Source: Oidiodendron maius Zn
Lineage: Eukaryota; Ascomycota; Leotiomycetes; Myxotrichaceae
Length of the DNA stretch: 64,000 nucleotides
NCBI GenBank assembly: GCA_000827325.1
Contig: KN832880.1
Location: forward strand, 1,282,803-1,346,802
Direction of reading: 5' to 3'
The stretch's first letter is position 1. Each line of letters opens with the position of its first letter. This document shows, one piece after another, positions 27,857 through 62,330 of the stretch. The translations under genes were made by a program, and so were the position numbers. The notes below the pieces were generated by a model. That model had not been told where the DNA came from. It made no database searches and was given only the letters and a program-made list of their open reading frames with translations.

Positions 27857-30800
27857 CTACTCCGATATAAGCTTTGGACCTTCCTTGAATCCGAGCAGAG
27901 AAATCCCTCCGGATGAGTGTCCTAATACAATGCTTTGGTTCCAGACAGCTTCACAAGTCGGTCGATAACCAGGAGGAAGCCAGACAAGATTTGACTTTCC
28001 TTCCGCTACCCAATTATTTGATACAAATAAAGTATGCGGAATGCTGCTGCCTTGTGCAATTCCTTGTGCCATTGGGCTGACCGAGTTAGAATGGCCCTCA
28101 AGTGGGTGCAGCACTGCTCCCGTCGCTGCATCCCAGAGCCGCACTGTCTCGTCAATCGACCTGGACACCACCTGCCTGCCGTCTGGCGAGAAGGCCACTG
28201 AGTTGACCCAGTCCGAGTGGCCCTTGAGTGTCTGCAGCGCCGCTCCTGTAGCCGCATCCCAGAGCCGCACTGTCTCGTCAATCGACCTGGACACCACCTG
28301 CCTGCCGTCTGGCGAGAAGGCCACTGAGTTGACCGGGCTTGAGTGGCCCTTGAGCGTCTGCAGCGCCGCTCCTGTAGCCGCATCCCAGAGCCGCACTATC
28401 TCATCGTCTGACCCTGACACCACCTGCCTGCCGTCTGGCGAGAAGGCCACTGAGTTGACCGGGCTTGAGTGGCCCTTGAGTGTCTGCAGCGCCGCTCCTG
28501 TAGCCGCATCCCAGAGCCGCACTGTCTCATCGTCTGACCCGGAAACCACCTGCCTGCCGTCCGCCGAGAAGGCCACTGAGTTGACACAGCCTAAGTGACC
28601 CTCGAGCGTCTGCAGGGTAGCGCTCCAATCGGCTTGCACCTTTGGTTTTGTTTGGATCCAAGCTGGGATACACTTCTTGAATCGTTTCTGAATGATACTC
28701 TTTTCTGGGGCAAAGATAAGGGCCGAACAGTATATTTGGAGAGGGGCTTGTTCAATTACCCATCGGTTATATAGGACGAATCGTTTTGCATCATGGACGA
28801 ACATATATAGACTAGGGCATTGATCTGCCTTATAATAGATTAGTCAAGTTTCCTTTATATATATACTATATAAAAAAAGCCTACTGGAATTTTAGTCTCT
28901 AAAGAGAGTAGCGCGCGAATCCCTTCAGAAGTCTTCCCTATCCAGCTGAGAGCCTCAAGCCAGTGGAGAAGATGCACCTGGAGAAATTTATGGACTTGGC
29001 CGCTATCGAAAAGCTGAGCTTCACTCTTGTGGAGATGCTGAATCCAGTAGAGACATGCGTACCTAACCTCTGGAGGAAGGCATTGCTCTATTTTACTACC
29101 CTCTATGTCCGCTACAAGTGTGCCGGGCACCTCTTGTCTGCAAATATCTTGCTTGAGACAGCTTGATATAAGCCGGATACAGTTGTCTGCTAGTGTTTGA
29201 TGTGCGTGCCTCTCGTCAACCCAGAAATTTGAATCACGGTACCTCTCTTTATTAAGCAAGAAGTCGCGAAATGAAGGATGATGTAGACGGAGAGGGAGAG
29301 TTTGATCCTTCGGGATATCTAAGATAGCATGAAGATCCTCTAGCACCGGGCCAATGTCCTGATTAGGAAGATATAGTAATCTAGTAAGAGCGTCGACAGA
29401 AAGGGGAGAGGATAAGGTAACAATACTCCCAAGAAATTCTCTTAGTATATTATATAAATCTTCTTTTTCTTGTTCTGTATAATGCTGGTGAATAGAGTTT
29501 TTAAGGACAGTAAGGTAGATCTCGCTGAGGTGATTTTCTGGTGTAGCAACAGACTTATCGCCTTTAAGTATCATATTAAGTCGTCTCGGAACAAATCGTC
29601 GGCCTTCACGAATAAAGCGACATGCAGTTGCGGCCCATATGAACAAGCCGCTAGCCTGCTGGACTAACAGCCGGATGACTGGCTCACCTGGCCAGCTAGC
29701 TTCAAGACCCCATTCCTGTCCAATCGATCTTAGTTCATAATCTAGGAAAGTAGAAATATCCTGGTCCACAATAGCCGCTTCTATGTTATGAAGGATGAAG
29801 TCATGGCGCTCAACATCTGGAATCCTGCGGAAACTGTGTCGGATTGGAATTTCTGGTCTGCTTGTAATTAGCACCCGTACTCGAACCTTCAGTAGTCGAG
29901 CCTCAGCTAAGAGTTGCAGAATTATCCGAATGTGGCCTTCATTATCACACTCGTCAAGGGCATCTACTACAAGCACGTACGAGGCTAGAAAGGAGCCTTC
30001 AAGCCTCGATAACGGACGGAAGACAAGCTGACGCCACTGATCAGAGAGAGACTGGCTTGCAATATCATTTTGCTCCGTAATAGCATCGGAAATAAATCGC
30101 TGGATTTGTGGTATATTGCATGCAAGCTGTGCGGCAAAACTTGTAAAGAACTTGCCAGCATGGCTGATATCTCCACCACCTCTTGAGAAGAAGAAGCTGG
30201 CCCCAAGGCGTTTTTGGTCAAAGTATCTGCGGGCGACAGTCCGCGCAACTGTCGACTTTCCTGTGCCGGCTAAGCCATTTAACCAGAAGATACACCGCTC
30301 ATCTTCTCCATCAGCCCAGTTGTATATCTCTTGTAGTAGGTCAACTCGGGTGTCGGGGAGGCAGATAGGTGCATGTTGATTGTTGTATGAATTGAACGGC
30401 GCATCAGCAGCAGACGGTAGACGATCGAGTCCTAAGTTGTTAGTCAAGGTTCGCTCGGATAGCTATACAAATCAAAGTTGGGCATTTACCCTTTGAAGGT
30501 TTGTTAATCTCCTCCTTGAGCCGGTTTAATGCATTATCTCTCCCTTCGCCATATATAAGCGGCATATAGACATCAAATATGCCTAGTAACGAGTATGCCT
30601 GGTCTTCTTCGCGTGCGGTCTGGCGATTTTCTGCCCATAATAAACGCTCTTCGACTCCGAACTGAGATAGAGGGGCTCCGTGAATCGCTGAAACCGCAAT
30701 CCCAGTTATATCGTGGATTTGTCGCTCTAGGGATTTCTTATCGCCTAGTCGCTTGCCCTCATGGGAGAAGAATTCAACTGAGCTAGGGGCAAGGAGTTCT

Positions 30801-31231
30801 TGAAGGGTCCAACCCCGGGTAAACCATCTGCTTGCGCGAAAAGCTGATTCCCAAGCAAGCTCGGATTGTAAAGCACCTCTTTTCCGCTTGGCTGTTGAAA
30901 CATCCGATAGATAGACGTAGCATTTGACCGCATTCTGGTACCAGCGGAACATTGAAGTGATGGCCTCTTGAAGCTCGACAGCATTGGATTTGTCGATACA
31001 GCAGGTGTCCACCCAGAAGTATTGCAAGCCGTCACGCTTAGCCTGTTCTCCGCAGAACTGTATCTTGCTGTATCCCGCCATTTTCGTGCCAGTACCATCC
31101 ATAAGATCTGCCAAGGTGACCTCCTCCGGTCCCCATCTGTGCGAAAGTATAGCATACTGCTCGGGAATGTCGTCGCCAAAGAACTGGGTCAGGCTGAACT
31201 CGCCATCGTTATTGTATGCTAGTAGACGCAT
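27857..31231 (-). CDS. HET-NACHT-WD40 STAND receptor (HNWD/het-d,e-like)
   Basis: About 1086 residues in three exons (31231-30490, 30431-28885, 28828-27857). The HET effector domain, residues about 20-170, carries AILSHRWG, FWVDTCCIDK, RWFTRGWTLQELLAP. The NACHT NTPase follows with Walker A GLAGTGKST at 300-308 and Walker B-like VLVVDALDECD. The last intron (28829-28884) was placed so the protein reads DQCPSLYMFVHDAKRFVLYN, the usual link to the repeats. The C-terminus has four full 42-residue WD repeats plus a partial one, 126 bp each and nearly identical in DNA. The last repeat decays into SVSPMAQGI. In this family the repeats recognise non-self effectors, oligomerise the NACHT and trigger HET-mediated cell death. 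The specificity is unknown. The gene looks intact. Confidence 0.92.
28110..28610 (-). repeat. Four near-identical 126-bp WD40 repeats
   Basis: Period of 126 bp, seen as the recurring CCGTCTGGCGAGAAGGCC at about 28177, 28303, 28429 and (variant) 28558 in + orientation. Differences between repeats concentrate in a few codons after GHS and around VVSG/RS-D/I-DE. This pattern is known for the polymorphic repeats of HNWD genes, where concerted evolution and diversifying selection meet. Confidence 0.9.
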
Positions 31232-33003: not shown

Positions 33004-34455
33004 CTACGATTTTACAATTGGAGGAATCATGGTCGAGTAGAACCACGATGCAAACTTCACGCTAGGCTCATCAATCAGCCGCGTGATAACCTCTCCCATC
33101 CAGAGTGTGAAAGGTAGGAGGATTAAATGCGGCAGAATGAATGCGATCTCCAGTCCCTGAGGCCCCACCTTTGGTAGGGGAAACCTGTTCACCCAGTTGG
33201 GGATGGCCTGCAGTTCGGCCTCGTGTGCCCAGCCCACCGCTGTGTAGAGTCGGTCGCCGAGAGTCCACAGGATCGGTCCATGGACCAGGTAGAAGGCGTA
33301 TGAGATGCGCCCGAGATGCTGATTGAATCGAGTCTCGAAAAAGGCCTTGAGCCATGGTATCCGTGGGATAGTGGCCACAATAAGGGTCGCGGCCCAGAAT
33401 AAATAGAACCACTTGTAATCAAACACGGCCTGTGGCTTGAGAAAGGAGAGCAAGTACCATCCAGGAGAATCTCGAAGTACCTTTTCATCAAAGTTCACGG
33501 AGGGGACGCCACCAAGGTACGTGCTGATCACAAATAGGGTGTAGAAGATGGCGGTTTTGTATGGCTTCAGTATCGAGACGAAGCTAGGGAGGTTATCGCT
33601 CAGAGCCAGCATATCCAGGTCGTTGATAAGCATCCCTGCCGCGAAGGCAGCACAGTACCAGCCATCTGTAATGTACATGAAGTACCAAATGAGTCCCACC
33701 TCACACATTAGGCGTGCATTCCGCGTACATCTTGAGAACGCCAGGACGGCGGTGTAGATGACGATGGACCCCTTGAACTCGACCGGGATGGACCAGACAT
33801 GGACGTTGTAGGTAAACCAAGGGGAGCCGCCGCCGCTGAAGATAAAGCTGAAGTTCTTAAGCTCCATATACCATTGCCATAACTCGTCACGGTATTTATT
33901 CTCGCGCTTGGCAATGGTCCAAATGTCAAACACATGCCATAAGGTCAGGTAGAGGAGGGTTGTCCCAATCACTGGAAGATAGAGCCGAAGCCACCGTCTA
34001 AATAGTGCCGAGGCCAGGTTGTCGGCCAACTTGGCCTGCTCGCCGGCGTGGATCAGGGACATCGGCTTGGTCGACAGCACATATCCAGAGATCACGAAGA
34101 AGGTGGTTACGGCGTAGTGACCGCCCGTGAAAAAATTCCGGATTCCGGGCAGCGTCGCAAAGTAGTATTTCCCGTCATAGCCCCAGGCGTTTTCCATGTT
34201 GACTTGGCTCACGTCGTGTGCCCACAATTGATGGTGGTGGAAGTAGACCAGGAGAGCCGCAAATCCTCGCAGGCCATCTAGATAGGCGGTGCGCCTCAGT
34301 TGTTTGCGTGGACCGCCCATCTTGACCACCGATCGCGTCACATCCCAGAGCCATCTTATCGCACGACTGGTATAAGAGTGCTTCGATTCAGGTGTAGTTT
34401 CCTCCCAATATCTGCCATTCTCCAAGAGACCGGCGTTTTGTGTTGTTGAAGACAT
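33004..34455 (-). CDS. Acyltransferase 3 family membrane protein
   Basis: 483 residues, intronless. The start at 34455 (MSSTTQ) was preferred over an upstream in-frame TTG. An N-terminal cytosolic tail of about 55 residues is followed by the family opening, AYLDGLRGFAALLVYFHHHQ, with the catalytic-type His pair and RGFAA motif. Then come FFVISGYVLS (motif II), FRRWLRLYLPV, VHVWSIPVEFKGS and a late SYAFYLVHGPILW, which carries the family's H-G-P loop. Ten or so hydrophobic segments. Members transfer acyl, usually acetyl, groups from CoA or a lipid donor onto sugars or other exported molecules. With the two Golgi-type membrane proteins just upstream on the same strand, O-acetylation of a surface glycan is a plausible but unproven role. 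Confidence 0.85.
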   Translation of the reverse strand: MSSTTQNAGLLENGRYWEETTPESKHSYTSRAIRWLWDVTRSVVKMGGPRKQLRRTAYLDGLRGFAALLVYFHHHQLWAHDVSQVNMENAWGYDGKYYFATLPGIRNFFTGGHYAVTTFFVISGYVLSTKPMSLIHAGEQAKLADNLASALFRRWLRLYLPVIGTTLLYLTLWHVFDIWTIAKRENKYRDELWQWYMELKNFSFIFSGGGSPWFTYNVHVWSIPVEFKGSIVIYTAVLAFSRCTRNARLMCEVGLIWYFMYITDGWYCAAFAAGMLINDLDMLALSDNLPSFVSILKPYKTAIFYTLFVISTYLGGVPSVNFDEKVLRDSPGWYLLSFLKPQAVFDYKWFYLFWAATLIVATIPRIPWLKAFFETRFNQHLGRISYAFYLVHGPILWTLGDRLYTAVGWAHEAELQAIPNWVNRFPLPKVGPQGLEIAFILPHLILLPFTLWMGEVITRLIDEPSVKFASWFYSTMIPPIVKS

Positions 34456-35577: not shown

Positions 35578-37016
35578 TTATGAACCACACAGATTTAGAC
35601 CCTTCAATAGGTCACCAGCAACGACATCTATCCCACCCGTCGAGACATCTTCTATCCCGAACAGCACGAGTATCACGTCATCAATGTAGCCATGGTACTT
35701 TTGACCATGGGACTTCCAGCTTAGTGATGTAACGTACAAAAATTGCGTTTGGTTCATTATCTTTTTATCTTCGCCCTTCCACTCTCCTTGCTTTCCTCGC
35801 CCGTTGATCCAGAATGGCTTCGACGTGATACCATGAACCGCAAAGGGAGCTACCTGCTGAAAGAGCATAACGTAAGGCTCGTACAGTATATGGTCGGAGA
35901 ATTTCTTCTTGTGCTGGAAGATAGTCATAATAAAGGTGTTAGAGTCGCTGGGCTTGCAAGCTGGATCTGATCGCTTGCAGAGTGTGATCGATAACGAGTT
36001 CGTCGCTTGGTGCAATGTTTCGTGTGGTGGCGTGAGTGTAGGCATGTATTTCGCCATGCAATTCTCATCACTCGCTGCAGCTTGAAGTGCTAGGTCTGGC
36101 CCGACTGTACCGTTGTATGACAATTGTGTAAAGACACGTTTTGGTGCGATGTCATGATGTACATACATCTGCTGATCTTTATCCCAGAAGAGGAAATAGT
36201 TCTTCTCCATGAAGTTATAAGGAGGGGGCCGCTGCAGCTCGGTCGGTATTCTGAACTGGTCTTTGTCAAAGAATTCGAATCCCCAATCCACTAGCACCCT
36301 AAAGTCCAGTATCCATTGTCCGAGACATGCATGCAGGGCAGTCGATCCGTAGATTGCATACGGTAATGATGGGCCGTAGAAGACCCTAGCATCATGAGGG
36401 CCAACACTCCATCCAAAGTATGCTCGATCACCCGTACAACTGTCGTAGCTGACCTGCACGAAATGGTTAGCCTTGCCATGGTTTTGGCGAGATAGGCAGG
36501 CCGAGTCGAGAGTCAGAGAAGAATACTCACAGGAGTAGTGCCGATGGGCAAGATCAGCGGCGAATCCACGCAGATCAGTGTGCCCTTCTTAAACTTTGCA
36601 TTACAGACCAGTTCGGCGAAGAAAACCGAGTCTTTCACCTCCCCCCTTTGTTTTTGGGCGACGATAATCCAGGTGTCTTCCAGAGATGGGTGAGGGATGG
36701 CATTGGGATTTATCGCATCCCACTCACCGAAATGGATCGGGAAGTACTTCTTGTCTGCAGTCGAAACCGAGAAGATCTCATTATATGCTCCTTCGACGTA
36801 GACAGCGCCTGGTGGCACTATCTTCCCCGTCCCGTCTGTTTTCTCTGTTGCACCCGACTGGTCGAATGATGCTGCTGATTCCGCCGAGGATCCCCCGCGG
36901 AATGATGGCAGTGTGATCGATGTCTCGCTGGATAGTCTGAGGGTGAAGAAGACGAAGAATGTGAAGGCGAGAAGCCCTACGATGGGAAGGAAACGCGCGT
37001 GTCTCCGGAGCAACAT
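35578..37016 (-). CDS. Type II membrane protein A, putative glycosyltransferase-like (two exons)
   Basis: 453 residues in two exons (37016-36531 and 36453-35578; intron 36454-36530). Short cytosolic N-terminus, then one membrane anchor (PIVGLLAFTFFVFFTLRL), a Ser-rich stem and a lumenal domain. Conserved blocks shared with the paralogue at 41148: INPNAIPHPSLEDTWIIVAQ, VGPHDARVFYGP, EKNYFLFWDKDQ, ITLCKRSDPACKP, KYHGYIDDVILVLFGIED. The layout recalls fungal beta-mannosyltransferase-like (GT91) or five-bladed propeller Golgi proteins, but that is a weak resemblance and the family should be treated as unknown. It probably acts in the Golgi on a glycan, near the acyltransferase gene. Confidence 0.7.
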
Positions 37017-37625: not shown

Positions 37626-39389
37626 TCAATCCTGTGGTGCTACCTCTGAATTTCTTCTTTTAACCCCTGAAAATAACAAGTCTAAGACAAACATATTATC
37701 ATCAAATATCAATTCTTCCTTTATTCGAGCGGTCATAACTCGATTTTCAAAAGAGAAAGTTGTTATTGCTTCACTCAGAGCATGACCATGTTCACTGGGG
37801 ATATGCTCGACCAGAATCTGATGCAGTCTTACCTTGCCCAGTGCTGCAGCCACTGGCTCATTCATATTATCCCTCACTTGTTTAATGTGAATATCAATTC
37901 CAACTTGCCTTTTGGGATTCCAAAGATGTATAAAAGTCAATAGTAACACAAAAGCAGGACCGTCTTTCTTGGAGAAATACAGTGCCGCTAGTGCACCACG
38001 CGAGCCCTTATCCCAAGTCATTGATTTATTCTTGTAATTCCAGGTATGAGAAGCATTGTCATCGTCCTTAATTTTGATAGGGTATTCGCAGTACAGAGCC
38101 TTATGAAACTTCAGGCCTAGCTCCTGACCGTATTCACGTAACCAACAGCGATGAAAAGAGTATGATACTCTGGACCACAGTGGCTCTGCTCCGAAGAGGT
38201 AGATCTTCTGACTCCCTAAAGATGCGGCTTCTGAATATTTTACCTCGATAAAATCCCGATCAGCGGCGCGGCAAAAGCTGTCTTCTGATTCGGACATGCC
38301 CAATGCAGACATTTGCGCCAGTGGTATCGCAATGGCAGTACCAAGGTTATTTTGGTGGCCACATTCTAGTATTGCCCAGTGTGTGTGATTATTGTGATTA
38401 TCCTTCGGGAGATTATGCTCCCTAAGGCGCAGGTGAACCTGCAGTCCTCTGTTTGTCATGGCATACGGCATTCTTTTCATATTATGAGGAGTAATGTCAA
38501 CAGAACTGTTGAATGCCACTGGGTGTGGTGCAAGAACCCCTACACCGAGAATAACACCTTTTCCTGGGGTGTTACTCGACCCAAACAAAGTATTGGGAAA
38601 GTGGTGATTCCACGCAAACAGACTGTGATCGTACCTCGATCGCATAATCTCTTCTTGCAATCGAATAAACGCTCTCTGACCTTCTCCGTAGAGGAGAGGC
38701 ATACTAACATTGAAAATACCCATTAGACAGTATGCTATATCCTCAGTTCTAGTTGTTTTTCTTTCGGAAGCCCAGGACATTCTTCGCGCTATGCTTTTCG
38801 TAGGCAGTAACTCGTGGTCATGTAGTACATCCGAGTCAATTCCGGTGGTCTTTGAGATCTCTTTCCCAAGCTCCATTTTCTCCCCTATTTCGTTCCATGT
38901 AGAGTCATAGAAATACACGATCTTTGGAGCTATAAGTTCCTGAAGGGTCCAGCCTCGTTTAAACCAGCGAGATGTGGAAAGAAACTCACGAGCTGGAAGA
39001 GGAGAACCAGGAGGTGTGGCCTCAGGATCGGAGTCAATCTCGATAACCTTTGGCTCAGGTTCCTTGGAGACATCTTCAAGGTACGCAAGGCAGACTTTGG
39101 ACTTTCGATACCAGCGAAACATCGAATTGATTGCTTCTGAGAGCTCGGCCGACGAAGATTTGTCGATGCAACAAGTGTCGACCCAGATATATTTGCAGCG
39201 GTGCCTCTTTGCTTCAGCAGCAGATCCAAAAATCTTGTTCCAGCCACGTTTTCTCCGACCTAGGTCAGTTGCAAGGTCTTGAAAAGTAACCTCGTCGTCG
39301 CCCCAGGTGTGCGATAGAGCAGCGTATTCTGGGACATCGGAACCGTAAAATGTCTCTAGCTGAAGAGTTTCTATGTTGAGCAATCGCAT
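37626..39389 (-). CDS. HET-domain protein
   Basis: 587 residues, one exon, starting MRLLNIETLQLETFYG. The HET domain (residues about 20-165) shows YAALSHTWGDDEVTF, CKYIWVDTCCIDKSSSAELS, MFRWYRKSKVCLAYLEDV and RWFKRGWTLQELIAP. After an acidic linker, EDIAYCLMGIFNVSMPLLYG and a C-terminal region of about 300 residues complete the typical DIYA-type HET gene without NTPase or repeats. The C-terminal part is unknown and variable in such genes. HET proteins trigger incompatibility-associated cell death when partnered with specific alleles, and no partner can be named. No breaks were seen. It sits between two paralogous membrane-protein genes. Confidence 0.9.
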   Translation of the reverse strand: MRLLNIETLQLETFYGSDVPEYAALSHTWGDDEVTFQDLATDLGRRKRGWNKIFGSAAEAKRHRCKYIWVDTCCIDKSSSAELSEAINSMFRWYRKSKVCLAYLEDVSKEPEPKVIEIDSDPEATPPGSPLPAREFLSTSRWFKRGWTLQELIAPKIVYFYDSTWNEIGEKMELGKEISKTTGIDSDVLHDHELLPTKSIARRMSWASERKTTRTEDIAYCLMGIFNVSMPLLYGEGQRAFIRLQEEIMRSRYDHSLFAWNHHFPNTLFGSSNTPGKGVILGVGVLAPHPVAFNSSVDITPHNMKRMPYAMTNRGLQVHLRLREHNLPKDNHNNHTHWAILECGHQNNLGTAIAIPLAQMSALGMSESEDSFCRAADRDFIEVKYSEAASLGSQKIYLFGAEPLWSRVSYSFHRCWLREYGQELGLKFHKALYCEYPIKIKDDDNASHTWNYKNKSMTWDKGSRGALAALYFSKKDGPAFVLLLTFIHLWNPKRQVGIDIHIKQVRDNMNEPVAAALGKVRLHQILVEHIPSEHGHALSEAITTFSFENRVMTARIKEELIFDDNMFVLDLLFSGVKRRNSEVAPQD

Positions 39390-41147: not shown

Positions 41148-42536
41148 TCATAGTAAGGCACACAGGCCTAGATCCGCTAACAAGTCACCTGCCATAATAT
41201 CGATACCCCCTGTGTCCGAATCTTCGATTCCAAAGAGCACGAACAATACATCGTCGATATATCCGTGATACTTTTGTCCGGCTTTCTTCCAACTTAGTGA
41301 GGTAACGTATATCATTTGTGTCTGATCTGATGGATTGCCATTGAGATCCTTCCATTCCCCAGGCATTCCCCGCCCGCTGATCCAGAACGGTTTGGTCGAT
41401 ATGCCATATAAGGCGAAGGGAGCCATTTGCTCGAAGAGCGTGACATAGGGATCGTAGACGGCGTGACCGCTGTAGAATTTCTTATGTTGGAAGACGGTCA
41501 AGATGAACGTGTTTGAGTCGTCTGGTTGGCACCCTGGGTCTGATCGCTTGCAGAGTGTAATCGAGATTGAGTTAGTTGCTTGGTGTATGGACTCATTTTC
41601 TAACGGAAGCTTTTGCATATACTTGTTCATGCATTTCTCGTCGCCTGTAGCAACTTTCGGTGCCAGATCTGGTCCTGTTGAGCCATCATCTGATAGCCTG
41701 GCAAAGACGCGCTTCGGGAAGATATCGTAGTGGGCGTAGACATTCTCATCCCTGTCCCAGAAAATAAAATAATTCTTTTCGACCATCCCATATGGTTCTG
41801 GTCGCTGGAGTTCTGTTGGCATGCTAAACTGTGCTTCATTAAAGAATTCAAATGGCCAATCCGTCAATAATCTCAGGTCCTGTATCCATTGACCAAAGCA
41901 CGTGTATTGGGAGTTCGATCCGTATACAGTGTAAGGCGCGGTGGGGCCATAGAAGACACGAGCATCGTGAGGACCAACATTGAAACCGAAGTACCCTAGA
42001 TTACCAATACACTTGTCGTGGCCCTGAAGAACGTTAGGTTCACTATTTTCATATTGATGGTGGGCTCTTACACGTGTCCTCCCTATGGGCAGGATAAGGG
42101 GGGGTTCAATGCATGATAGCCCCTCGCCAGTAAAGACGGCGTTACAAAAGAGCTCAGCGAACCATACTGAGTCCTTCACGGAGTGGTCATGCCGTTGGGA
42201 CACGATGATCCAGGTGCTTTCTAAAGTCGGGTGGGGGATAGCGTTGGGATTTATACCCCTGTGCGGAGGGAATTTAATTTTGAAATACTTCTTATCCGAC
42301 GTTGAAAGTGAGAATATCTCATGATATGCCCCTTCCGTATAGCCAGCAAAGGGATGGCCAACATGGTTAGAAGGTGTTCCCGACTCTTGAAACTCGCTAC
42401 TCAATCCGTTGGAAAAGGGGCTGGTGAGTGACGGCAATGAGATCAAGGTCTTGCCGCACAGCTTAGCAACCAGCAAGATGAGGAAGATGGCAGGGCCGAC
42501 GAATAGAAGGAGACGTTTTAGCTCTCTGACCAACAT
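41148..42536 (-). CDS. Type II membrane protein B, paralogue of A, putative glycosyltransferase-like
   Basis: Probably 446 residues in two exons (42536-42072 and 42023-41148). The whole span is also open, giving 462 residues, but the 48 nt at 42024-42071 begin GTAAGA, contain CCTAACG and end CTTCAG. They sit at the position of the intron in paralogue A, and the second exons are then both exactly 876 nt. An N-terminal anchor, VGPAIFLILLVAKLCG, is followed by a stem and a lumenal domain with INPNAIPHPTLESTWIIVSQ, VGPHDARVFYGPTAPYTVYG, EKNYFIFWDRDENV, SITLCKRSDPGCQP and KYHGYIDDVLFVLFGIED. Same tentative role as A, in Golgi glycan modification. The family is unknown. Confidence 0.75.
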   Translation of the reverse strand: MLVRELKRLLLFVGPAIFLILLVAKLCGKTLISLPSLTSPFSNGLSSEFQESGTPSNHVGHPFAGYTEGAYHEIFSLSTSDKKYFKIKFPPHRGINPNAIPHPTLESTWIIVSQRHDHSVKDSVWFAELFCNAVFTGEGLSCIEPPLILPIGRTRVRAHHQYENSEPNVLQGHDKCIGNLGYFGFNVGPHDARVFYGPTAPYTVYGSNSQYTCFGQWIQDLRLLTDWPFEFFNEAQFSMPTELQRPEPYGMVEKNYFIFWDRDENVYAHYDIFPKRVFARLSDDGSTGPDLAPKVATGDEKCMNKYMQKLPLENESIHQATNSISITLCKRSDPGCQPDDSNTFILTVFQHKKFYSGHAVYDPYVTLFEQMAPFALYGISTKPFWISGRGMPGEWKDLNGNPSDQTQMIYVTSLSWKKAGQKYHGYIDDVLFVLFGIEDSDTGGIDIMAGDLLADLGLCALL

Positions 42537-47930: not shown

Positions 47931-48065
47931 CCTGTACCTAGAGGGTTAAGGAGCCGTAGTCAGGGACTGGCCAGTCCCTAGCGGTGCTGCAAGCCAACTG
48001 CTCTAAACGGTCGAATTTAAAGGTTTACACCTTAAGTAGGCTGCAGGAGGCATACCAGTAAGGTA

Positions 48066-48131
48066 GCAGCTAGGACGACACCACAGCTGGCTTTTTAGAG
48101 CCAGGGGCCCGAGTGCGATTCGGGTAGCTGT
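48066..48131 (+). other. Cloverleaf-like inverted-repeat cluster in LINE unit 3
   Basis: GCAGCTA (48066-48072) pairs with TAGCTGT (48125-48131), CTGGC with GCCAG (48087-48104), and CCCGA with TCGGG (48108-48124). The three-stem fold resembles a tRNA lacking a D arm. T-arm-like GAGTGCGATTCGGG differs from the standard TTCGA loop. It may be a tRNA-derived fossil, a structured leader or chance. Confidence 0.3.
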
Positions 48132-50353
48132 GACCTTGAAGGTTCCTCCCTATTAGTCTACCGACACGCGTATACTATCCTCTCGAGCCAGTGTAATGTC
48201 TCATCAGTCATATATACACTACTACAGCCCACCAGGGACCTAGGCGCGACCCTAGGGCCTGACTTCCTGTTACCTAGAGCTGTCTCCAGCAAAAGGCCGA
48301 CCGTGTCTTGCAGGAGGAGACGCGTTTTAGCAGCTGCCACGCCGGCACAACTGCACACACTCCTCCTACTAACCTATACCGCTTCCCCTATATATATCCA
48401 GTATGCGGTGCGCTGTGTCCCAGCGACATGACCTCGAAGGTAGGTTGGGCGCTCCACACGCCTCTCACGCGAGGTTCCCTATATAGGTCTGCCAGACTGC
48501 CACCCGTAACCCTTTGGTCTTAACGAGTCGTCCTTGGACCTATATAGGGGTTAACAACTTCCATTACACAAGGAGGAACACTTAAGGATCTTCCAAGCCC
48601 TCAAGTCGCGCCAGGGAGTAAACTGCAACCCTGACGTGACTACTCAGAGCCGGACAGTATCGAGGGTGTCCTGTCCCTACTATAGTACATAGTAGGGTCG
48701 GATGGTTATTGTAAGCCATCTCCCTCTTATATAATCAATTGACTAGCGGGTAGTGCGATAGTTCGAGTCGTGGTCGATTCGACGTGTATGTTATGTTGTA
48801 GTCGCGGTCATGTACAATTCTTGACCAGAATCACAACAAAACCACGTTTCGCGCCCTCAGCAACCATGCAGCAGGTACACGGCGCTGTAGCCCCTCGGAC
48901 TCGATAGACTGAAGAGTTAAATATCATATCCTCGATTTTTGCGATGTCCAGCGCCCTTTTCAGGGCGATTCCGATGGCTGTTCACCAGAGAGGTTTTTAA
49001 TATTGAAACTGGCTAAGATCCAGGTATGTGTGTGTGTGTGTGTATCTATTTTACGGCCGTAGGCCGTGGCTAAGCACGTGTCCTGCCTATCCCTTTATAG
49101 GGCAAAGGCTGCCAGGAGTTAAGTCCTAGGTTTTAATATCTAAGAAGACTGATAATATATAAAGTGACTTGTAGTATGTGTTCCATATCACTATAGTCGG
49201 AAAGGTAGCCTGCCCTAGGACAGGAATAGGTGTATCTGCTAGCTGCAGTAGGTCCTTCAATGCTCCTGACCTCTGCCCTATATCAGGGACATGCTATTAC
49301 TATTAGAGAACAAAAGAGAGGTTGTTATATAGCTAGCCTATACTAGAAAAGGGGGTACCGAGGGCAGATATCCTTGAAGAAGCGGGTCTTGTCTAGCCAG
49401 GAGGCTAGCTCTCTAGTACCCCTAGAGGTACTAAGTAAGGTAGGAAGGACTAAAGAGGGGGCTCCAGGGGGTCTTGGGGTATGCCTCTTGGCTCTATAGT
49501 AGAAGAAGAAGTGTAGTTGTCCCTTGTAGGAGCTGCAGCTATATAGCATATAGGCGTCCTTGTAGCTGAAGCGCTTGTAGTAATCAGTAAAGTCGCTATA
49601 GCCAGACCTAACGGCTAGGATTTGGTCTAGTATATAGTGTCTGAGCTTTAGCTTATCTGGTGGGAGGGGGGAGGTTATTATCCCTAGTTCCTGGTAGGAC
49701 TGTAGGGCTATTGTATACTAGAGTATAAGTGCTGCTGTAGGACCTTTAGCCTTAGCTTGTCGTTTTAGGGTGGCTAGGGAGAGAGGTAGGGAGTTAGGAG
49801 GGGGGAGGGCAGCTCCCTCTTTGGCTGCTAGGTCAGTAGCCTTATTTCCAGGGACTTGTATATAGCTAGAGACCTAGCGGATCCGAACTTTACTAGGGGG
49901 AGTATTAGGGAGCCTCTTACAGGCAGGCCAGGTATAGGCTAGCTTGTAAAAGGCGTGGAAGACGGACTGGGAGGAGCCTATCGAGGGGCTTAGGAGGCGT
50001 GTAGCTATTGCTAAGTTATCTAGAAATATCTAGAGGTCCTTAGTAGATCGGGAAGCAAAGCTAGCTAATGTAGCCTTGGCTCCTGCTAGGGTAGTCTTGG
50101 CTTTAGCGTCAAATACTTCCCTAGCTAAGCCTAGTGAGAAGGAACTGCAGATAACCTGTTGGCTGGCTTGATATCCAATATAGCCTCCACTAGTCCTACC
50201 GTTAGCTAATTGAGAGCCATCTGAAAAGAGGGTAATATCTCTACTAGGGAGGGAGGTGTAGAAATCGAGGAAGTCCTTAATAGCCTGCTCTTTTGTCTAG
50301 CCTCTAGGGCTGTATATCTGTAGGAGTGTTGTCTGATAAGTCTTGTAGACTAG

Positions 50354-50935
50354 CTACAGGGTATAGCGTAAGGGGTTAACCTGTTCTGATAGAGGTAGGT
50401 CAAGGATATAGCAGGCAAAGCGACTAGAGGGGCGCTGTATAAGTAAGACCTTTTCAGCCTGTGTATATAATGGGTGATTAGGGTCGAGCCTATAGATATA
50501 GACTGTATCTATAAGGGCTAGTTGGTTTAGCTTAATTTCAGGGGGTAAGAGTCCTGACTCTTGGTATAGGGTAGTAGTGGGTATAGTATAGAAGACTGGT
50601 AGGACTGCTCTAGCACCTGCTAGTACTACCTTCTGTAGAGTATTTAGGTGTCTATCTACCTGGTTAGAGACAGATCTAGCAGGTGGTGGTTCAATAGGTC
50701 TTATAGGTGCTCTAACAGATGCAGCAAATATAGCAAGTCGTTTAGCAGGGATACCAGACGGTTTAATAGGCCTTAAGGTCCTTGTAGGCGTTCTAGCGGT
50801 CCGTGAACGTTCTGGCCACCAAGTTTCAGCTGTAAAGTAGGCCCTGCGGAGTATATAGGCCGTGACGGCTTGCTGTAAGAGGTATAGGGATACTCCTCGG
50901 ACTGTATTTCTAAGGGATTTCAGGGCCTGGGCCAC
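50354..50935 (-). pseudogene. Open post-RT segment of the LINE
   Basis: 193 open codons beginning MAQALKSLRNTVRGVSLYLL and passing through LPVFYTIPTTTLYQESGLLP, the linker between RT and RNase H in Tad-like elements. Being open this long suggests that unit 4 is younger or less mutated than units 2 and 3. Confidence 0.8.
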
Positions 50936-51837
50936 TCTTAGGGCCTTAGCAGCAGACTCGGTAGCATGCTACTTGAAGGTTAGTCTCTTATCAAATAGGA
51001 CACCTAGCCAGTGTAGGTAAGGTCGATCCCTATTTTCTGAGACTATAATTAAGCCTGCTGATACTATAGGGGTGGTCAAGGGCAGGAACAGAATTATATT
51101 GCAAAGCTAGTCTACAATACAAGAGGGAGTAGCGAGCTCCCACCACGCTTTCCTATATATCCTTAGTCTGTTGCCGAAGCTTACCTCCAGTATATATTTC
51201 GAAGGGACGTCGAGGCCCTAGCGACCTCCCTTATACCCTCTGCCCTGTTTGCTCCCTAAGCCTATATCAGCCTACTATACCTACTGCCCTATAGCTCTAC
51301 CTATAGACCAACACGCATGTCTGTCCTCTCGGGCTATATAGATAGTGTCATATAGGTCCCTTATAGGTGCCTTGTAGCTACTTCGCCTAACTGTCGCTAC
51401 CATTATATACTATACCTTGCAGCAGTATACTGTTTCGTGTTACCTTACCAGGTCTCCCCTTACAGTAAGGCTGACCGTATCTTGCAGGAGTTATGAAGCA
51501 TATAACCCTAGCCAGGTATCATATAAACGCTTTTCTCTCCTACTAACTAAAGTGTATATATCCTCTCCCCCACTTCCTAGCTACCTGCTTTGCCCGTCCT
51601 CTAAACGCCCTGCTTTGCCTGTGTCTATTAAACCCTATATTTGTAAAGTCGAAGTTATGGTGCTATATAGTCGCCATACGTCCTCGGGCCCGCCTCTACA
51701 GTGGAGTTCCTCTGTACTGTATATCTGTAGGTTCACTGTGAAGCCAAAGCTGCGGCACCTGTATCGTCCCCCTAGAATTCCCTCGATTGACTAGTACAAT
51801 CACTATAACCCTCTAGTCCTTATATAGATTTCTTCAC

Positions 51838-51880
51838 TTAACGAGAGCTCCGAGTGTTTGTTGGTTAACGAGAGCTCCGA
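51838..51880. repeat. 16-bp direct repeat, 27 bp apart
   Basis: TTAACGAGAGCTCCGA occurs at 51838-51853 and 51865-51880, in the far part of LINE unit 4. Possibly a small subrepeat of a 5' region. Confidence 0.6.
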
Positions 51881-52773: not shown

Positions 52774-53763
52774 TTATATCGAGGCTTTGGTCTGATTATT
52801 GGGGCTCCACAACGGCACAATAATACGAGGAAATCCATTGAGTCCAAGAACAAATTTGTCCAGTGACTTAATTTCTGCTTCCATAGCCTCTAATTCCACT
52901 GTATCCCAGTTGGCCCAAACAAAACGTCCTCTCAGAAAGTGTGCTCTTGGGCTGGTGGCCCACACCACAAAATTTGCAGAGAGCTCAGCTGCAAATATCT
53001 TTGATTAGTCAAAGACAGTCATATGCGACATATGTATCGGGAATGTGACATTACCATCATCCCATGGAGCATTAGCTCCTAACTTTTGGCCTTGTTGAAA
53101 AGGCTTCATTCCCATCGCGGTTTGTACCACTCCAGGATGCACGTTGATGACTTGCATATCTGGTTTCTCCATCTGCAATGTCTCAAATAACTTTGCAGAT
53201 GCCATTTTGGAACTTCCATACGGACCTTGTCCTGCCATCAGTATATGGGCTGAACCCGTAGATATATTGATGACGCTAGCGTGAGTAGAAGAGGTGCCTG
53301 GACTCAGAAATGTGCTGATCACATTCATGCTTCCTTTGACATTGACCTCATAGCATCTCCACCAATCGCCAATATCTGCATCCGCCCACAAGGAGAGATT
53401 GTTTATATATCCAGCATTATTAATGAGCACATCGATTGGCCCAAATTCCAGCACGATAGTACCGAATGCTGCGCGGACAGATTCTATTTCAACGATATCA
53501 GCAACAACAGGGAGAACAGAGCAGCCCCTGTGATCTTTTTCAATATTGACTTTAGTAGTCTCAAGCGCAGTTTGGTTTCGGCCCAGTACGGCAATTCGGG
53601 TTGACCCAGCCCTTGCAAAGGCGCGGGCAACTGCTTGACCAATACCACTACCACCTCCAGTAATGACAACCACACGACCTTGGGCAGAGATATCCGAGTT
53701 TGTGGGGTTGATAGCTGGATACGGCGCAGAATGGTATGTAGGTACCGGGGAAAGAGCCGCCAT
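52774..53763 (-). CDS. Short-chain dehydrogenase/reductase (SDR)
   Basis: 307 residues in two exons (53763-53055 and 52988-52774; intron 52989-53054, with acceptor TTTGCAG). The start is the second Met, MAALSPVPTYHSAPYPAI, in context gccatcATGG, rather than a Met ten codons upstream. Cofactor motif TGGGSGIG near residue 37, NNAGYINN, catalytic Ser in STGSA and YGSSK. The spliced C-terminus reads WDDAELSANFVVWATSP and GRFVWANWDTVELEAM, the usual end of this fungal NAD(P)-dependent SDR subgroup. The unspliced frame stops 17 codons into the intron. Cytosolic, substrate unknown. Confidence 0.88.
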
Positions 53764-54501
53764 GATGGCAGAGATAAGATGGATGAATATCATTTATTAG
53801 AACTAATGGGTACGGTTCTATTTATTTATTAACAACATGCTCTATGACGGAAGGCCATCGATCTGTAGTAGATTTGCAATCTATCCTTGATTTGATGTTT
53901 ACGCCGAGGTTGATTCTGTATAATTAACAATCCTTTTCGGACTCGGCTTCGAAATGTCCCGTCGTAACGTCTTTTGAGTTAACCTAAGCTTTACTTGGTG
54001 CACTAGTAAGCCGAAAAGTGTTGATGTAGCCGAATAGGAAGTATCGTGACTCTGAGCAGCTGTACCCCTCCGACAAACCAACGAATAACTTCACACAAGC
54101 TATGATTAGCTTACTTCATCCGAATCCCTTCTATTGGTCCATTGCGTTTTACTCTGGTGATGAAAGTCCTGTACTTGGAGCTCTAACGCCGAACCGAGGC
54201 ACGCACTTCGCTGAATCGGGATCGGTGCGACAAATTCTACCGCCGGCTTATAATCGACCGCGCCTCTTTACTATAGTCAGTTGCAAGTGATCTAAGCCCC
54301 ATACTTGTATCTAGTAAATTGGCCCGCTACCTTAGACATCAGATTTCGGGCGTGCGGTGCAAGACTTAACGTGTAATAACGAAAATACGGAGGCATTTCG
54401 GAGCAGTAGACGGACGAGATTGACCCGTTTAGTGAATGGTTGACGTACCGATTCGTTCTAAACAGAATTATATCTACTTAAAAGCCTCATTCGAACCATT
54501 T
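53764..54501. other. Intergenic
   Basis: SDR promoter side and the 3' flank of the NB-ARC-TPR gene. No other feature was recognised. Confidence 0.5.
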
Positions 54502-57066
54502 TCATTTCCATACGCCTGCAGCATCAATAGCCAATTTTTCTGCCTTCCATACACCAAATATCATGGAGGATGAGATAGTATCAGGATGATCAATACCCAA
54601 GACCCGAGTCCGTAACTGTACGCATTCCCCCATTAGTTCAAGGGCTTCGGTGTGTCGACCTTGAGATTTATAAGTAAAGGCGAGGTTGCCTATCGCGGCT
54701 AGCCTATCTGGATGCCCAATCCCAAGCACCCTCATCGTCATCTCTATTACATGCATTCCCAGCTCTTCTGCCTTCTTCCATCGACCTTGATACCGGAACG
54801 TCGTTGCTAGATTGTTCATAGAGGTTAGCGTGTCTGGATTATTCGCACCAAGTACCCTCTCTCTCGTCTCCACCAGTTGCATGTCTAGTTTTTCAGCTTC
54901 CTTCCATCTGCCTTGATGCCGGTACGTCGACGATAGGTTGCTCATGCTCTTTAGAGTGTGTGGATGCTCTGCGCCAAGCACCTTCTTTCTCATCTCCATC
55001 ACTTTCACATCCAGCTCTTCGGCCTCCTTACACCGACCTTGATGCCGGTAATTCGTTGCGATATTGCCCATACTAGTCAGTGTGTCTTCGTCATCTATAC
55101 AGAGCACCCTTATCATCGTCTTCTCCAATTTTATGTCCAGCTCTTCGGCCACCTTCCATCGGCCTAGACTCCAGGACGTCGATGCGACGTTCCCCATACT
55201 CTTCAGAGTGTGTGGATGCTCCGCGCCAAGTACCATCTTCCTCATCTCCATCACCTGCTCGTGCAACTCCACTGCCTCCTGCCATCGGCCGCCAAGGCTG
55301 TATGCTAAACCTACCATCTCCATACTGCTCAATGTTTCTTCCTGTTCTTTGCCGAAGAGTTTTCTCCTCGTTTTCATCACCATTACCGACATTTTCTCTG
55401 CATCAGTAACATTTTCTCTGCTCCATGCATACCATGCTGCCTTGTATAATAGTGAAGCCCATTCTTCTAATGAGGTTTTGTTATCTGGCTGCTGCGCTAT
55501 TGCCGATTTTGCATATGGAAAAAGCGATTGACACTTTTCCCAGTTCTTGTACTCCCCTGTTAGAAATTCAGCCGAAAGGTTTTTGATGAACTGCTGTTTC
55601 CACCTTTCAAGCGGTCCGCAAGTACCAAGCCATTCCCGTATAGCCAGCTGTACTAGTGAATGCATTTCGAAAGTAGTCTTATCTGTATTAACCGAGATAA
55701 ACGAGTAGTTTTTTAGTATTAGTATATCATCTTCGAATCCATCGTTCCCAATTGAATCCGATACACTATCTTCGTCATTGTCCTTCTTATAATTCACACC
55801 GGCCTTTCCCACGTACTTACGATTTTGCACTATTTCGATCGTTCGTACTAATGCCTCAGGTATCTCATGCGGATCAAAAAAACTTATAAGTGATAGTAGA
55901 TTAGCTGCAGATTGTCTTGTATGGTGGATATGCTCAAATGATATTTGCCAAGTGGTGATGGTAGATGGTTTAGCCCCCCAGTCTCTACGAAGGTGTCCGC
56001 CTTTATGATTCAAGAGGCTCATCTTCTTGCGATCGCTTTTTTGAAACTCTTGAAAATACTGCTTCACTGAACAGCGTGGCACCATTTGTGTAATGTATGC
56101 CGCTGCTTGAACAATAGCAAGCGGCATAAACTCAAGCGCTGCTACAAGTTCAGTCATATCTGTGCTATTGCTCTGCCCTCCTAGCTTCTTCTTAAAGAGC
56201 GCCAGGCCATGCTCCTTATCCATCGGTTCGACTGCGATAATATCTCTCTGTTCAACAAGCCTTAGTGCTACCTCCATACTCCGCGTTGTGATAAGAATCG
56301 ACCCATTATGGCTTTGGGGGAGATACGCTGAGAGTAGCTGTCTTGATCTGCCAATCTGGCTGCCTCCTGATCCATCGTGGCTTGAGGAGACGGCTCCATT
56401 AAAATCGCGGTGGTCATCAATATTATCAAGTATAAGGAGCCATCTTTCCCTCTTTTCAATATATAGCCAGCTATGAACAAGCTTAAAAATATTGGCTTGA
56501 GGATCTTTCCGACCGGTAATCTGTAATCGGTCTGCAATTTCCCGATAGCTTTGTTCTAAACGGGCTGCGTTACTCGCGTAGACCCAGAAAACCCACGTCT
56601 CAAGCGATCGGTTTCTAATTTGGTAAGAGTATTCGATGGCAAGTTGCGGCTTCCTTCATAGAGGTTAGACTAGGTGGATAAAATCAGACCCATGCCCTAA
56701 AGCTTACCCAACCCCACCTAAGCCCACAAGGGCAGTCCTGGACCCAGGTATAGAACATTTAGCACGGATCTGCTCTAGAAGAGTATGCCGATCGACGTAG
56801 TCGGGATCACGAAGGAATGGAACAGTAGACGACGGACTTGGTGGTGTCCGTGGTCGCTCTGGCAGAGGATCGCCATTAGCAGAGTTGGGCTTGCCCATTG
56901 CTTACGTACCTGGCGGGAGGTGAATCCACTCGCTATTGATCTTAATGTTGTATGTGTCTCCAAGTTGGGCTCTAGCGTTGTTATTGACTTGAATATACTT
57001 GAATTGATGGCCAGGCTGCAGTGGACCTGAATGCAACCATCTGGAGCCTTCCATCGCCACGGCCAT
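54502..57066 (-). CDS. NB-ARC-TPR STAND receptor with HET-s-like N-terminal motif
   Basis: 819 residues in three exons (57066-56910, 56858-56708, 56653-54502; introns of 51 and 54 nt). Residues 20-45 include VNNNARAQLGDTYNI, resembling the short HET-s-related amyloid signalling motif (core A-R-x-x-L-G-[ND]-x-[YV]) found at the N-terminus of some fungal NLRs. A Pro/Ser-rich linker and TVPFLRDPDYVDR follow. The NB-ARC P-loop reads GLGGVGKPQLAIEY (98-111), with Pro where Ser/Thr is normal. Walker B is RWLLILDNID and the later motif GSILITTRS. The C-terminal half has six or seven 42-residue kinesin-light-chain-type TPRs (VLGAEHPHTLKSM-like). Such receptors bind a ligand through the repeats and may template an amyloid in a partner effector. 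No partner gene was seen nearby. Confidence 0.85.
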
Positions 57067-57829: not shown

Positions 57830-57847
57830 ATATTGCCTAGGCAATAT
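57830..57847. repeat. 18-bp perfect palindrome
   Basis: ATATTGCCTAGGCAATAT. The function is unknown. It could form a cruciform or bind a dimeric regulator. Confidence 0.6.
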
Positions 57848-57905
57848 AGTACAATATTACATTTATACTATACTGTAGTAGTAAAGGCTTCTTCCCTCTT
57901 TAGCT

Positions 57906-58030
57906 TTCTCCTCCTTATTAATATAGAGGTTTATTGTTAACTGCAGAAATCCATTACAGCCCTCTATAGTCTTTTCCTCCTTATTAATATAGAGGTCTAT
58001 TATCAACTATAGAAATCTATCACAGCCCTT
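57906..58030. repeat. 66-bp tandem duplication
   Basis: Two units, each with CCTCCTTATTAATATAGAGG followed by a similar 36-bp tail ending CACAGCCCT or ACAGCCCT. Unit 2 differs mainly by transitions (for example TGTTAACTG versus TATCAACTA), consistent with RIP-like or neutral decay. Confidence 0.75.
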
Positions 58031-58923
58031 GATAATTAGATTCTAGATTAAAGTCTTAGCCTTTAGTAATTAGGTAACCTTATTGCCTCCTTTATAATAG
58101 CCTCTTCTAGACGGGATAGTAATGTTTAATATAAAAGCATAAGTAAGACTATAATTACAGTTTTTATTAGATATATAGTATAGAAGTAGAGTTAATATAA
58201 CTAAACTTTATATTCTTTTCTACCTTAAATACTCTCCTTATTAGAGTTTCTTATACTAAGATTCCTATAAACTCTTTTCTACCTATACTGCGCCTAGAAT
58301 ACACTCATTCTTTACCTTCTAAATATAGGACTGTTGCCCCTTTCCCCTTCCCTTCCCTTGTACAAATAGCAAAGACCATTCAGAACAACCTCTTCTAGGA
58401 CAGACGCATGTCTCTATCGCGAGGTGCCTAGTCTGACTCTAGTGGGAGCTGCTAGCTGGGCCCTTTTAAACTTTAGCTAGGTCTTCCCTTAAGCACTGAT
58501 TCGTGGGAAGTGAGTAACAATCTTGGATATGCTCTTATAGATAAAGCCGGAGTTTATTTTGCTACCATTTAGTGAGGACAGTTCTAAATTAAGTTGCAGG
58601 GACTGCTATTCTTCTGCGCGTTCGTGCGCTAGCAATTGGTTCGCTCCCATTTTCAGCTCGCCCGCTCGTGTACTCTTAACATCGGTTACCAAGCTGGCAA
58701 GGTTATTATTCGGTTTAACCCCTTCACGTAATGCACGCGCTAGTCACTGCTTCCGAGAGACTACCATTATACTACTCAGTCAGCGTATGTGGAAAGGTGG
58801 AAAAGCTTCTCGAAGATGAGTAGATGATGTGACAGACGAAGTTAAGATCCGTACTGTGCATGCCCAAGGCTATGACCGATATAATGTGTGCTTGTAAAGA
58901 GGCCTAGTAAATATAGACTTGCC

Positions 58924-61900
58924 TCATAATTTGCTCTCTTGGTACATGACCAGCGCTTTTAAGTAGTCCGGCACTTGTTGGACAACAACCCTATATCCCC
59001 ATGGTGCCATATAGTCATATAACACGGCTTCTACAGCCTCACCATCAGGCTTTCCAGATAGCATTTCTGATCGATTATGTGGTAGAAGCTCATCCAAGAC
59101 AACTTTCGCTTCGTTTCTGAATACCTCGACGAGTTCCTCATGTGACACTTCATCTCTTGCTCCTCGAAGGTGAGCCGATCCCGAATAAGTTGATGACAGA
59201 CTTATGTTAGAAGGTTCCAGTGATCTTGCAGAAGGTGTTGCTTGTAAGATCAATGAGAAATAGTACTTTGCTCGAGCGACGTTTTCTCTTGGCCAGTAAA
59301 CCTTTTGGTGATGTATCAAGACCTTTCGAATCCAGTCCCTGGTCTTAGTATCAGTGACGTTCAGTGGTTTAGAGGGAACATATATTATTTAAGACACGTA
59401 CTCGGCAATTTCGAAGTTATGGTCGAAATAGTTCATGATCCCCAAGGTTAGGTAGCTCTGCAGAGTCAAAGGGTTGCTCTTACCACACCTCGCAAGTCTA
59501 ATGTCCAAGACTTCTTCGTGTTCTTTGATAGCTTGCTTAACTTTTTGGTCTTGGAAAAGAAATATTGCCCAGTCAAAACGATATACTGTTGTAAGCAACG
59601 TTCCAGGTCCAGCTTTCCTCATGAGATCCGCTGCTGCTTTCGCAAATTCGACTGCAAGGTTTGTCTGTCTTCTATATACGAAAACGAAAGCCATCGAGTG
59701 GTAGTATTTCGCGTACTCGTATGGGAACGCCTCGGGACGACCCCAAGTTTTGAATTTCTCGAAACAAATATTGGATAACTCTTCAACCTTGTCGAATCGG
59801 TTGAATTGTTGGTAACTACAACTGAGGTCCATGACAGCGTTGTGAAGTAAGATGTCCTCCTCGGTTCTGATGTCAGCAGGAGCTCGACCCTTTAAAGCCT
59901 GCTTACGAAGGTCCAGTGCTTTAATACGGCGCTCAAGACCCTCGTCGCGTCGAGTAATACCAAGTGTGTCTGTATACATTCCAATGACAATATGGATATT
60001 CGTCCGGACCGGGCTGGAGTTATCGAACGCGATGGAATCAAGAATATCCTCAGCAGACTTCATCAACTTCTCGCCAACTTTGATAAGTCCACGGTCGTAT
60101 AGGTCAACACCAAATTGCGAGAAGATCTCTGCAAGTTCGAATGATCCGGCGATCTTCGGCTTGGCCCTATTATAAGCAGCTTCTAGACTTTGAATTTGAG
60201 GGAGGTATTTCTCAATAATCGGCCAAGTTCCCTCCTCAGGCTGCTGCAAAGCAGAAGGCTTCGGCAAAACTGCCTGTAGAAGTTTAAGGACTATGTCAAA
60301 TGACTTCTGGCGCTGGCTGGTCTCATTATTGAGCTTGTGGAGTATTGCACGTTGTAAGGACCTATGTGTAGCCAAGCAAACATCCCCATTTATCGTCTCA
60401 CGTCTAACAAGCTGACTATCTCGAAGTTGTGCAACCATTGAAAACCTGTATCATGTCAGAATACTTCTAAAGTATAGGTTTTTGATGGTGTACTTGTTCT
60501 CATCAAATCTGAGGAAGGCAAGATCGTTGTCACTATGGTCCGAGAAGATCATGCTCTCAGGAACAGCCTCAGGGTTGAGGAATGCCAAAATGTAGAGAAG
60601 ATTTCGGGCATTATCAGATAGTTTGGTTAGAGCAACGTCAAATGCAGCATTCAACGGTTTATCGTACCCAAGGTTCTTGTCGGCTGTAGAGTTCTCTGGA
60701 ATACTACTGGACTTCTGGAGCATAGCAAGATATTCCGCTAAGGAGCACTGGGATATCTTCATGAAGCCAGTTGCTTGGTTTAAGTACAGAGGAAGTCCAC
60801 CAACAATGTGTGTTATCTCAGATGCTAGATCTTTCTCTTCTTCAGTACTCTCATCGCCTTTGAATCGAGTAAGTAAGAGGCTCGAGCCGGCGGGTTTATC
60901 GAAAGGAAGAAGCTGAACAATATTATTAGACCAGGGAAGAACATCAGCAGGTTTCTGAGTCGTAATTATAATGGAACTAGAGGAGTCCGTCGATGAAGGC
61001 CAGTAAACAATAATGTCATCCCAGGTCTCAACGTTGTCGAACACAAGGAGCCAACGCTTGTCTTTGTGGGTCAGCTTGTATTACTTGCAAAAAGGAAGGA
61101 AATGATGGAACGCACCAGTGGTTTCAAACCACTCTTGTATCTTCTCCAATGTGTTTTGGTCGATGATACTGGTGCTACCAAACAGACCAAGCTTCTTTCC
61201 AATCGAGCTATAGGACTTCAATATCTCAGCAGAGCTTTCAGCTCGAACCCAGAAGACCCAATCATACAAAGACCGATATTTATAGGCATACTCCAGCGCC
61301 GTCTGTGTTTTCCCGACCCCTCCGATCCCATGAATAATGCATATATCGGGTTCTGAATCGTTAAAGGAAGTAGCAGAAGCATTCGACTGAGTGGAGGATC
61401 CCTCGAGATACTGATGGATCTGAGAGAATTCATCATTTCTGCCAAAGAATTCGTTATTTCTCCTCACTATATTGACCATATGACGTAAATTCACCCGCGA
61501 CCGATGTTCTACAATGGATTCCGCAACGCTGGGGTTCGATGCAGGCGTCTGTACTCCCTCGATCGACATTGTTGGAACGTGCTTCAGGGCGTTTTGTTTC
61601 GCAGCAATTTCTTGCTCGAGTAGTCGAACCTGAATCGTCTTGACCTGCTCCTCAAAATTCTGTCCGTGGATCGAGGCACATTCCTCAATGTCTTGCAGTG
61701 TCTTCTTGGCCTCCTTGGAGAAGGCATACTTACTCCGAAACTTTGAGCCTATAACATATTAGTCGCAATCCAAGTATGATCGTACAGGCGGTATACTACC
61801 GCGGTCTTCAGAAGTTATCCGTATCAATTTCACGTAAAACTTTAGATAATCGTCGTACAGATCTGCCAAGGCGAGACGGAGCCGAACATTGTCTGAGTTG

Positions 61901-62330
61901 TAGATGGAGATTGGCCTCTCGAAGTAAGGCATGGCCAAGTCAAGTGCCATCACCTGATCAACAGTGTTTTCTCGAAGCTCTGCGCTTTGAAAACCGGACT
62001 CCAAGGTTATATTTATCAGTTCCTAGTCTTTATTCGCTTGAGCTGTCGGCATACCTCGAGAGCGGCAAAAAATGCCCTCCACAGCAGAGTCGCATAGGCG
62101 CCATCGCAAGTTGTGCTCTGGAGAGCGCTACTAAATGCCTTTGTTTTCTCGATAGATGGTTTCAGTTTCTGTTTGCTGTCTGTCCTATCTGCTGATTTGT
62201 GCAATAGGCTGTCAAATGCAGTGTCGAATGTCTGATCATCTTGGACAAAATCCAGGGTCCTCACTTTTGTCGCTGCCAAATCACGTTTCTGTTTCTGAAA
62301 AATGTCATCTAGGATGAATTTGAAAGACAT
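58924..62330 (-). CDS. NB-ARC-TPR STAND receptor (six exons)
   Basis: 1047 residues: exons 62330-62055, 61998-61800, 61748-61116, 61061-60494, 60445-59398, 59343-58924, all phases agreeing and introns 48-56 nt. The helical N-terminal region (1-200: LWRAFFAALE, FERPISIYNSDNVRLRLALA, DDYLKFYVKLIRI) is of the type preceding fungal STAND NTPases. NB-ARC: Walker A GIGGVGKTQTALEY (299-312), WVFWVRAESS, RWLLVFDNVETWDD and SSSIIITTQKPADVL, then GGLPLYLNQATGF (GLPL motif). The C-terminal 600 residues are helical, partly TPR-like (LSCSYQQFNRFDKVEELSNI, TNLAVEFAKAAADLMRKAG, KQAIKEHEEVLDIRLARCGK), with a final unknown domain of 139 residues. It probably acts as a nucleotide-switched sensor in self/non-self or stress recognition. 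Intact by inspection. Confidence 0.88.

Follow-up and report, generated by a model that had tools for sequence, protein, structure and literature searches.

What kind of region is formed where four genes of non-self recognition type lie within 35 kb of each other, with a repeat array among them, in the ascomycete Oidiodendron maius Zn? The question arose from a 64,000-nucleotide stretch of contig KN832880.1 (hereafter the window), for which a preliminary description had named a HET-NACHT-WD40 gene, a lone HET gene and two NB-ARC-TPR genes (here NLR1 and NLR2), and had read the segment as an accessory one in which recognition genes accumulate. All four genes are confirmed by Pfam domain matches and all lie on the minus strand; the link of their families to non-self recognition is supported by these matches and by the literature. 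Gene models were produced with a small purpose-built gene finder, trained on the long open frames of the window, and fungal features are apparent in the form of spliceosomal introns, a transcription factor domain (PF11951) and the HET domains themselves. The features discussed below are as follows.

13852-16206, minus strand: gene with a possible PigL_N-type N-terminal domain (PF17111, sub-threshold) and an acidic middle part.
27860-31231, minus strand: HET-NACHT-WD40 gene, HNWD-like (Pfam matches, open spliced frame, intron ends).
28112-28615, minus strand: four 42-residue WD40 repeats, 34-39 of 42 residues identical per pair.
33007-34455, minus strand: acyltransferase 3 family gene (PF01757, 100.6 bits).
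35581-37016, minus strand: paralogue A, without a Pfam family, one predicted intron.
37629-39389, minus strand: lone HET gene, 587 amino acids, single exon (PF06985, 61.7 bits).
41151-42536, minus strand: paralogue B, 462 amino acids, without a Pfam or NCBIfam family, hydrophobic N-terminus.
42934-51082, minus strand: LINE copies, RIP-mutated (repeat period, RVT_1 fragment, C-to-T pattern).
53008-53793, minus strand: short-chain dehydrogenase (PF00106, 131.6 bits).
54505-57066, minus strand: NLR1, with a short N-terminus, NB-ARC (GKP), DUF7779 and 42-residue TPRs; two predicted introns.
58927-62330, minus strand: NLR2, with an unassigned N-terminal region, NB-ARC (GKT), DUF7779 and TPR; five predicted introns.

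We consider that this is very probably an ordinary fungal NLR/HET cluster, in which STAND-type receptors, probably independent of one another, have gathered in a changeable region. The HET-NACHT-WD40 gene provides the clearest likeness to a known system. Its domains follow the order HET (PF06985; 52.5 bits, cut-off 22.5), NPHP3_N (104.2 bits) with NACHT (36.4 bits), and WD40 (176.1 bits), which is that of the HNWD genes het-d, het-e and het-r of Podospora anserina. Three exons (31231-30490, 30431-28885 and 28828-27860) join into a stop-free frame of 1086 amino acids, and both introns possess GT..AG ends and a branch-like site. An additional intron offered by the gene finder (30778-30876) was discarded, since it would remove the HET domain from an open frame. 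A PDB sequence search with the NACHT exon returned no credible match.

As assembled, the gene contains four clear WD40 repeats of 42 residues each, with a mean identity of 86.9% (219/252 across six pairs; individual pairs 81-93%); this resembles the 42-residue, more than 80% identical repeats of HNWD genes and lies above the published mark for high internal conservation in that family, 85% over 100 amino acids. Among the four repeats 19 of 42 codons vary, nine of them changing the amino acid, and four of these nine fall on the seven positions of 42 that have high dN/dS in HNWD repeats and serve to classify them (P 0.028, on our own numbering map, for which the conserved residues given in PMC1805685 served as anchor). 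Per site, synonymous change exceeds amino-acid change (pS 0.22, pN 0.078). Across the repeats (28112-28615), 12 of the 26 CpG sites vary between C and T, as do 7 of the 67 remaining C sites; RIP was considered as the source of the WD40 variation and set aside, because many of the CpG changes are silent third positions and tolerance accounts for them equally well.

Unlike the Podospora genes, whose reactive alleles have about ten or more WD40 repeats, at least ten being required for reactivity in the published account, the gene has only four clear ones, a difference that concerns reactivity and not kinship with the HNWD family. Illumina assemblies reportedly do not reconstruct the WD40 repeat region, and hence this may be either a non-reactive allele or a gene whose repeats were collapsed by assembly. 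Its product would most likely be a STAND switch, in which a partner protein is sensed through the WD40 repeats, nucleotide binding and oligomerisation are the task of the NACHT module, and HET domains thereby brought together lead to regulated cell death.

The two NB-ARC-TPR genes differ from each other at the point where nucleotide would be bound. NLR2 matches NB-ARC (50.5 bits), DUF7779 (40.9 bits) and TPR (34.3 bits) and has a canonical Walker A (GKT). The start codon, by frame count, is the ATG at 62330, and exons that the gene finder placed upstream of 62335 were discarded; the model rests on five inferred introns, several of which have weak donor sites. NLR1 matches the same three families (NB-ARC 42.2, DUF7779 33.4 and TPR 241.1 bits), and a GK[ST] Walker A was not found in it: its motif is GKP, with proline at the usual Ser/Thr position. 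The codons of this motif are joined across an intron (56654-56707) whose acceptor, AAG, is of a less usual kind; the other nearby AG sites break the frame. The Ser/Thr of Walker A is required for nucleotide and magnesium binding. In a bacterial, not fungal, comparison set, selected by the P-loop pattern with a following Walker B-like stretch and perhaps including a few proteins that are not NB-ARC, 10 of the 16 readable loci (26 examined) had T at this position and the other 6 had S. NLR2 would most likely function as the HET-NACHT-WD40 protein does, with the TPRs as sensor and the unassigned N-terminal region as effector. NLR1 may be a receptor that is weakened, or that acts without handling nucleotide normally.

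The preliminary description had also ascribed fast turnover to these families. Among the repeats, the WD40 units show signs of it in their high pairwise identity, whereas the six 42-residue TPR units of NLR1 have a mean identity of 45% and so give no sign of recent concerted evolution. A scan of prokaryote genomes with the whole of NLR1 found no relative; with the TPR units alone, 78 loci were retained as the best of 131, and at two of these 78 the searched P-loop pattern lies upstream of the TPR in the same frame.

At the short N-terminus of NLR1 (56905-57066), one 21-residue window, beginning at residue 20, fits the common features of the HRAM amyloid motif (PMC5485727), expressed as a rule of hydrophobic residues at positions 3, 6, 8 and 14 and G at 17 of 21, provided that alanine is counted as hydrophobic. 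Of 33668 six-frame positions 66 also satisfy the rule, as do 21 of 9543 gene-model positions, and the chance expectation of a fit in such an N-terminus is about 0.07-0.16. In its short N-terminus and the one fitting window NLR1 may be compared with HRAM-bearing NLRs (PMC5485727, PMC9815663), but most HRAMs in the published set begin at residues 5-9, and no partner copy of the NLR1 motif occurs within the window, the best other match scoring 31, below all 15 of 15 shuffled queries (32-37). No Pfam amyloid family matched NLR1, and a PDB sequence search with its N-terminus gave no credible match. Amyloid signalling by NLR1 was dropped as a claim, the rule being too loose.

Could the neighbouring receptors form a working module, in which different sensors cooperate, for example with NLR1 as the sensor and NLR2 as its helper? 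Different specificity modules close together had suggested as much in the preliminary description. Plant sensor NLRs can have poor P-loops, and NLR1 with its GKP lies 1.9 kb from NLR2 with its GKT, with no gene between them. Plant sensor-helper pairs are described in PMC12258605, a paper that finds head-to-head pairs to be rare in Sordariales (13 of 225 two-gene clusters); NLR1 and NLR2 stand in tandem and not head to head. Furthermore, they share only 24.6% identity over 280 residues, and hence are not recent duplicates. A cooperating module of this kind seems to us quite unlikely, and its most specific form, a fungal sensor-helper pair in which ligand sensing falls to NLR1, its P-loop disabled and its N-terminus perhaps amyloid-forming, and execution of the response to the P-loop-competent NLR2 beside it, very unlikely. 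On the favoured reading of an ordinary cluster, the genes probably act independently and would lie together since such genes collect in changeable regions. The AT-rich gap between NLR1 and NLR2 also contains a two-copy tandem repeat of 66 bases (57894-58029).

The HET domain of the lone HET gene is 44.7% identical over 253 residues to that of the HET-NACHT-WD40 gene, and the two are therefore not recent duplicates; the C-terminal part matches no Pfam family. The protein would most likely join a death-inducing HET domain to a recognition region of its own. The gene is flanked by paralogues A and B, the exon pieces of A being 63% and 51% identical to B, and neither matches a Pfam family. Each paralogue has a hydrophobic N-terminus, and an intron interrupts only one of the two. 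PDB sequence searches with the lone HET C-terminus and with paralogue B gave no credible match, and the structure predictions were of low confidence, with a mean pLDDT of 31.2 for lone HET (from one sequence) and 33.4 for paralogue B (from three window rows). The arrangement invites comparison with the het-B locus, where a HET protein with a C-terminal lectin fold adjoins a PII-like partner gene (PMC10890737). Both loci encode a HET protein that is not an NLR and is comparable in length, 587 amino acids here against a C-terminal domain end near 622 in BH1, but the neighbours here lack a family match in place of the PII-like neighbour of het-B, and Pfam gave no match at all in the lone HET C-terminus or the paralogues. 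The paralogues could be partners of the lone HET protein, a suggestion that comes solely from their position.

The repeat array that had been placed among these genes is real, as judged by its repeat units, and RIP-mutated, as judged by a C-to-T pattern. From 42934 on, LINE units that each measure some 1071 bases or more follow one another three times head to tail, with a period of 1071, and another copy occupies 49009-51082; a reverse-transcriptase fragment at 47523-47945 scores 25.8 bits against RVT_1, under the cut-off of 29.6. Units 1 and 2 have a common 5' junction, which points to tandem duplication and not to separate insertions. These two units differ almost entirely by C/T or G/A (92 of 93 differences), and, with direction read from the less mutated unit, 78 of these count as C-to-T going from unit 1 to unit 2, 71 of them in a CpA or CpG context, with both strands affected. 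The other unit pairs examined, each taken against unit 1 or unit 4, show a similar pattern. CpA is the usual context of RIP, and CpG has additionally been reported for some ascomycetes. Hardly any mutation is seen at CpC or CpT in the LINE copies. A further observation is that the sequence ACCTGGATCTTAGC, perhaps a target or tail sequence, recurs where the LINE units have their 3' ends, with one additional occurrence outside the units (at about 42960, 44029, 45100, 49025 and 52283).

An array of this kind raises the prospect that the whole segment is decaying, and that its genes are relics near silenced repeats, the WD40 domain having been shortened and the P-loop damaged. The four WD40 repeats, the GKP of NLR1 and the adjoining RIP-mutated LINE array would all be expected of such a segment, but the main reading frames run open for long distances. 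The TpA/ApT index, 1.46-2.24 over 42-52 kb, falls to 0.71-0.93 across the NLR and HET genes, where it resembles the rest of the window save for a mild shift to 1.19 at 58001-60000, an interval that contains the end of NLR2 and the AT-rich spacer. We consider decay unlikely, and retain the reading of an ordinary cluster beside a RIP-mutated array.

The cluster itself conforms to a published definition. In Sordariales, NLRs have been counted as clustered when less than 40 kb and fewer than eight non-NLR genes separate neighbouring ones (PMC12258605), and the three NLRs here are separated by gaps of 23.3 kb (five genes) and 1.9 kb (none); the locus is thus a further example of an arrangement already described. 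Across the 37 genomes of that study, clusters took in 602 of 2349 NLRs; three to five NLRs were present in 47 of the 272 clusters, and only 16 of the 272 consisted of paralogous copies. Three NLRs within these limits and no recent paralogues are what the two sets have in common, whereas the LINE array inside this cluster sets it apart from those of Sordariales. The presence of HET genes near each other and near genes without known family is also seen in Neurospora, where 42 of 69 HET genes are clustered with lineage-specific genes (PMC10684091). The idea of an accessory segment fits published patterns of HET gene clustering, by analogy with these genomes. Third-position GC does not clearly set the NLR and HET genes apart: the values (lone HET 0.436, NLR1 0.473, HNWD 0.493 and NLR2 0.518) fall within a range of 0.424-0.665 for 19 entries, three of the four in its lower third.

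The segment could instead belong to the cargo of a giant transposon of the Starship type. Such elements can carry NLR-type genes, but no DUF3435 captain was detected in 40 Pfam queries (some of them repeats) covering part of 1958 six-frame segments, a scan whose scope would be exceeded by an element larger than the window. We regard this origin as extremely improbable.

What the locus adds is a cluster in which three receptors that differ in their sensors lie beside a RIP-mutated LINE array, in agreement with the idea that recognition genes of fungi accumulate in changeable regions. Two leads come from it as well: a receptor with a Walker A proline beside an intact one, and a short N-terminus whose sequence satisfies a loose amyloid-motif rule. 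If variable among strains, the region would be a candidate for incompatibility; in P. anserina, 4 of 132 HET-domain genes are given as incompatibility genes, and so this role is unlikely for any single gene here on numbers alone.

A fifth gene, at 13.8 kb, had been credited in the preliminary description with an NLR-type N-terminal domain and no NTPase. Pfam found no NTPase in it, but the N-terminal domain is supported only below threshold (PF17111, PigL_N; E 3e-4, 20.7 bits against a curated cut-off of 27.2), and the gene is at most a possible relative. Elsewhere in the window, an AT-rich stretch at 25773-26063 holds an HTH_ABP1_N fragment (PF18107, E 1.3e-9), which we take to be perhaps a remnant of a pogo-type transposase. 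A beta-lactamase-family gene (PF00144; 62988-64000) is divergent from NLR2, about 650 bases off, and runs beyond the window edge; a second gene of the beta-lactamase family lies at 5057-6317.
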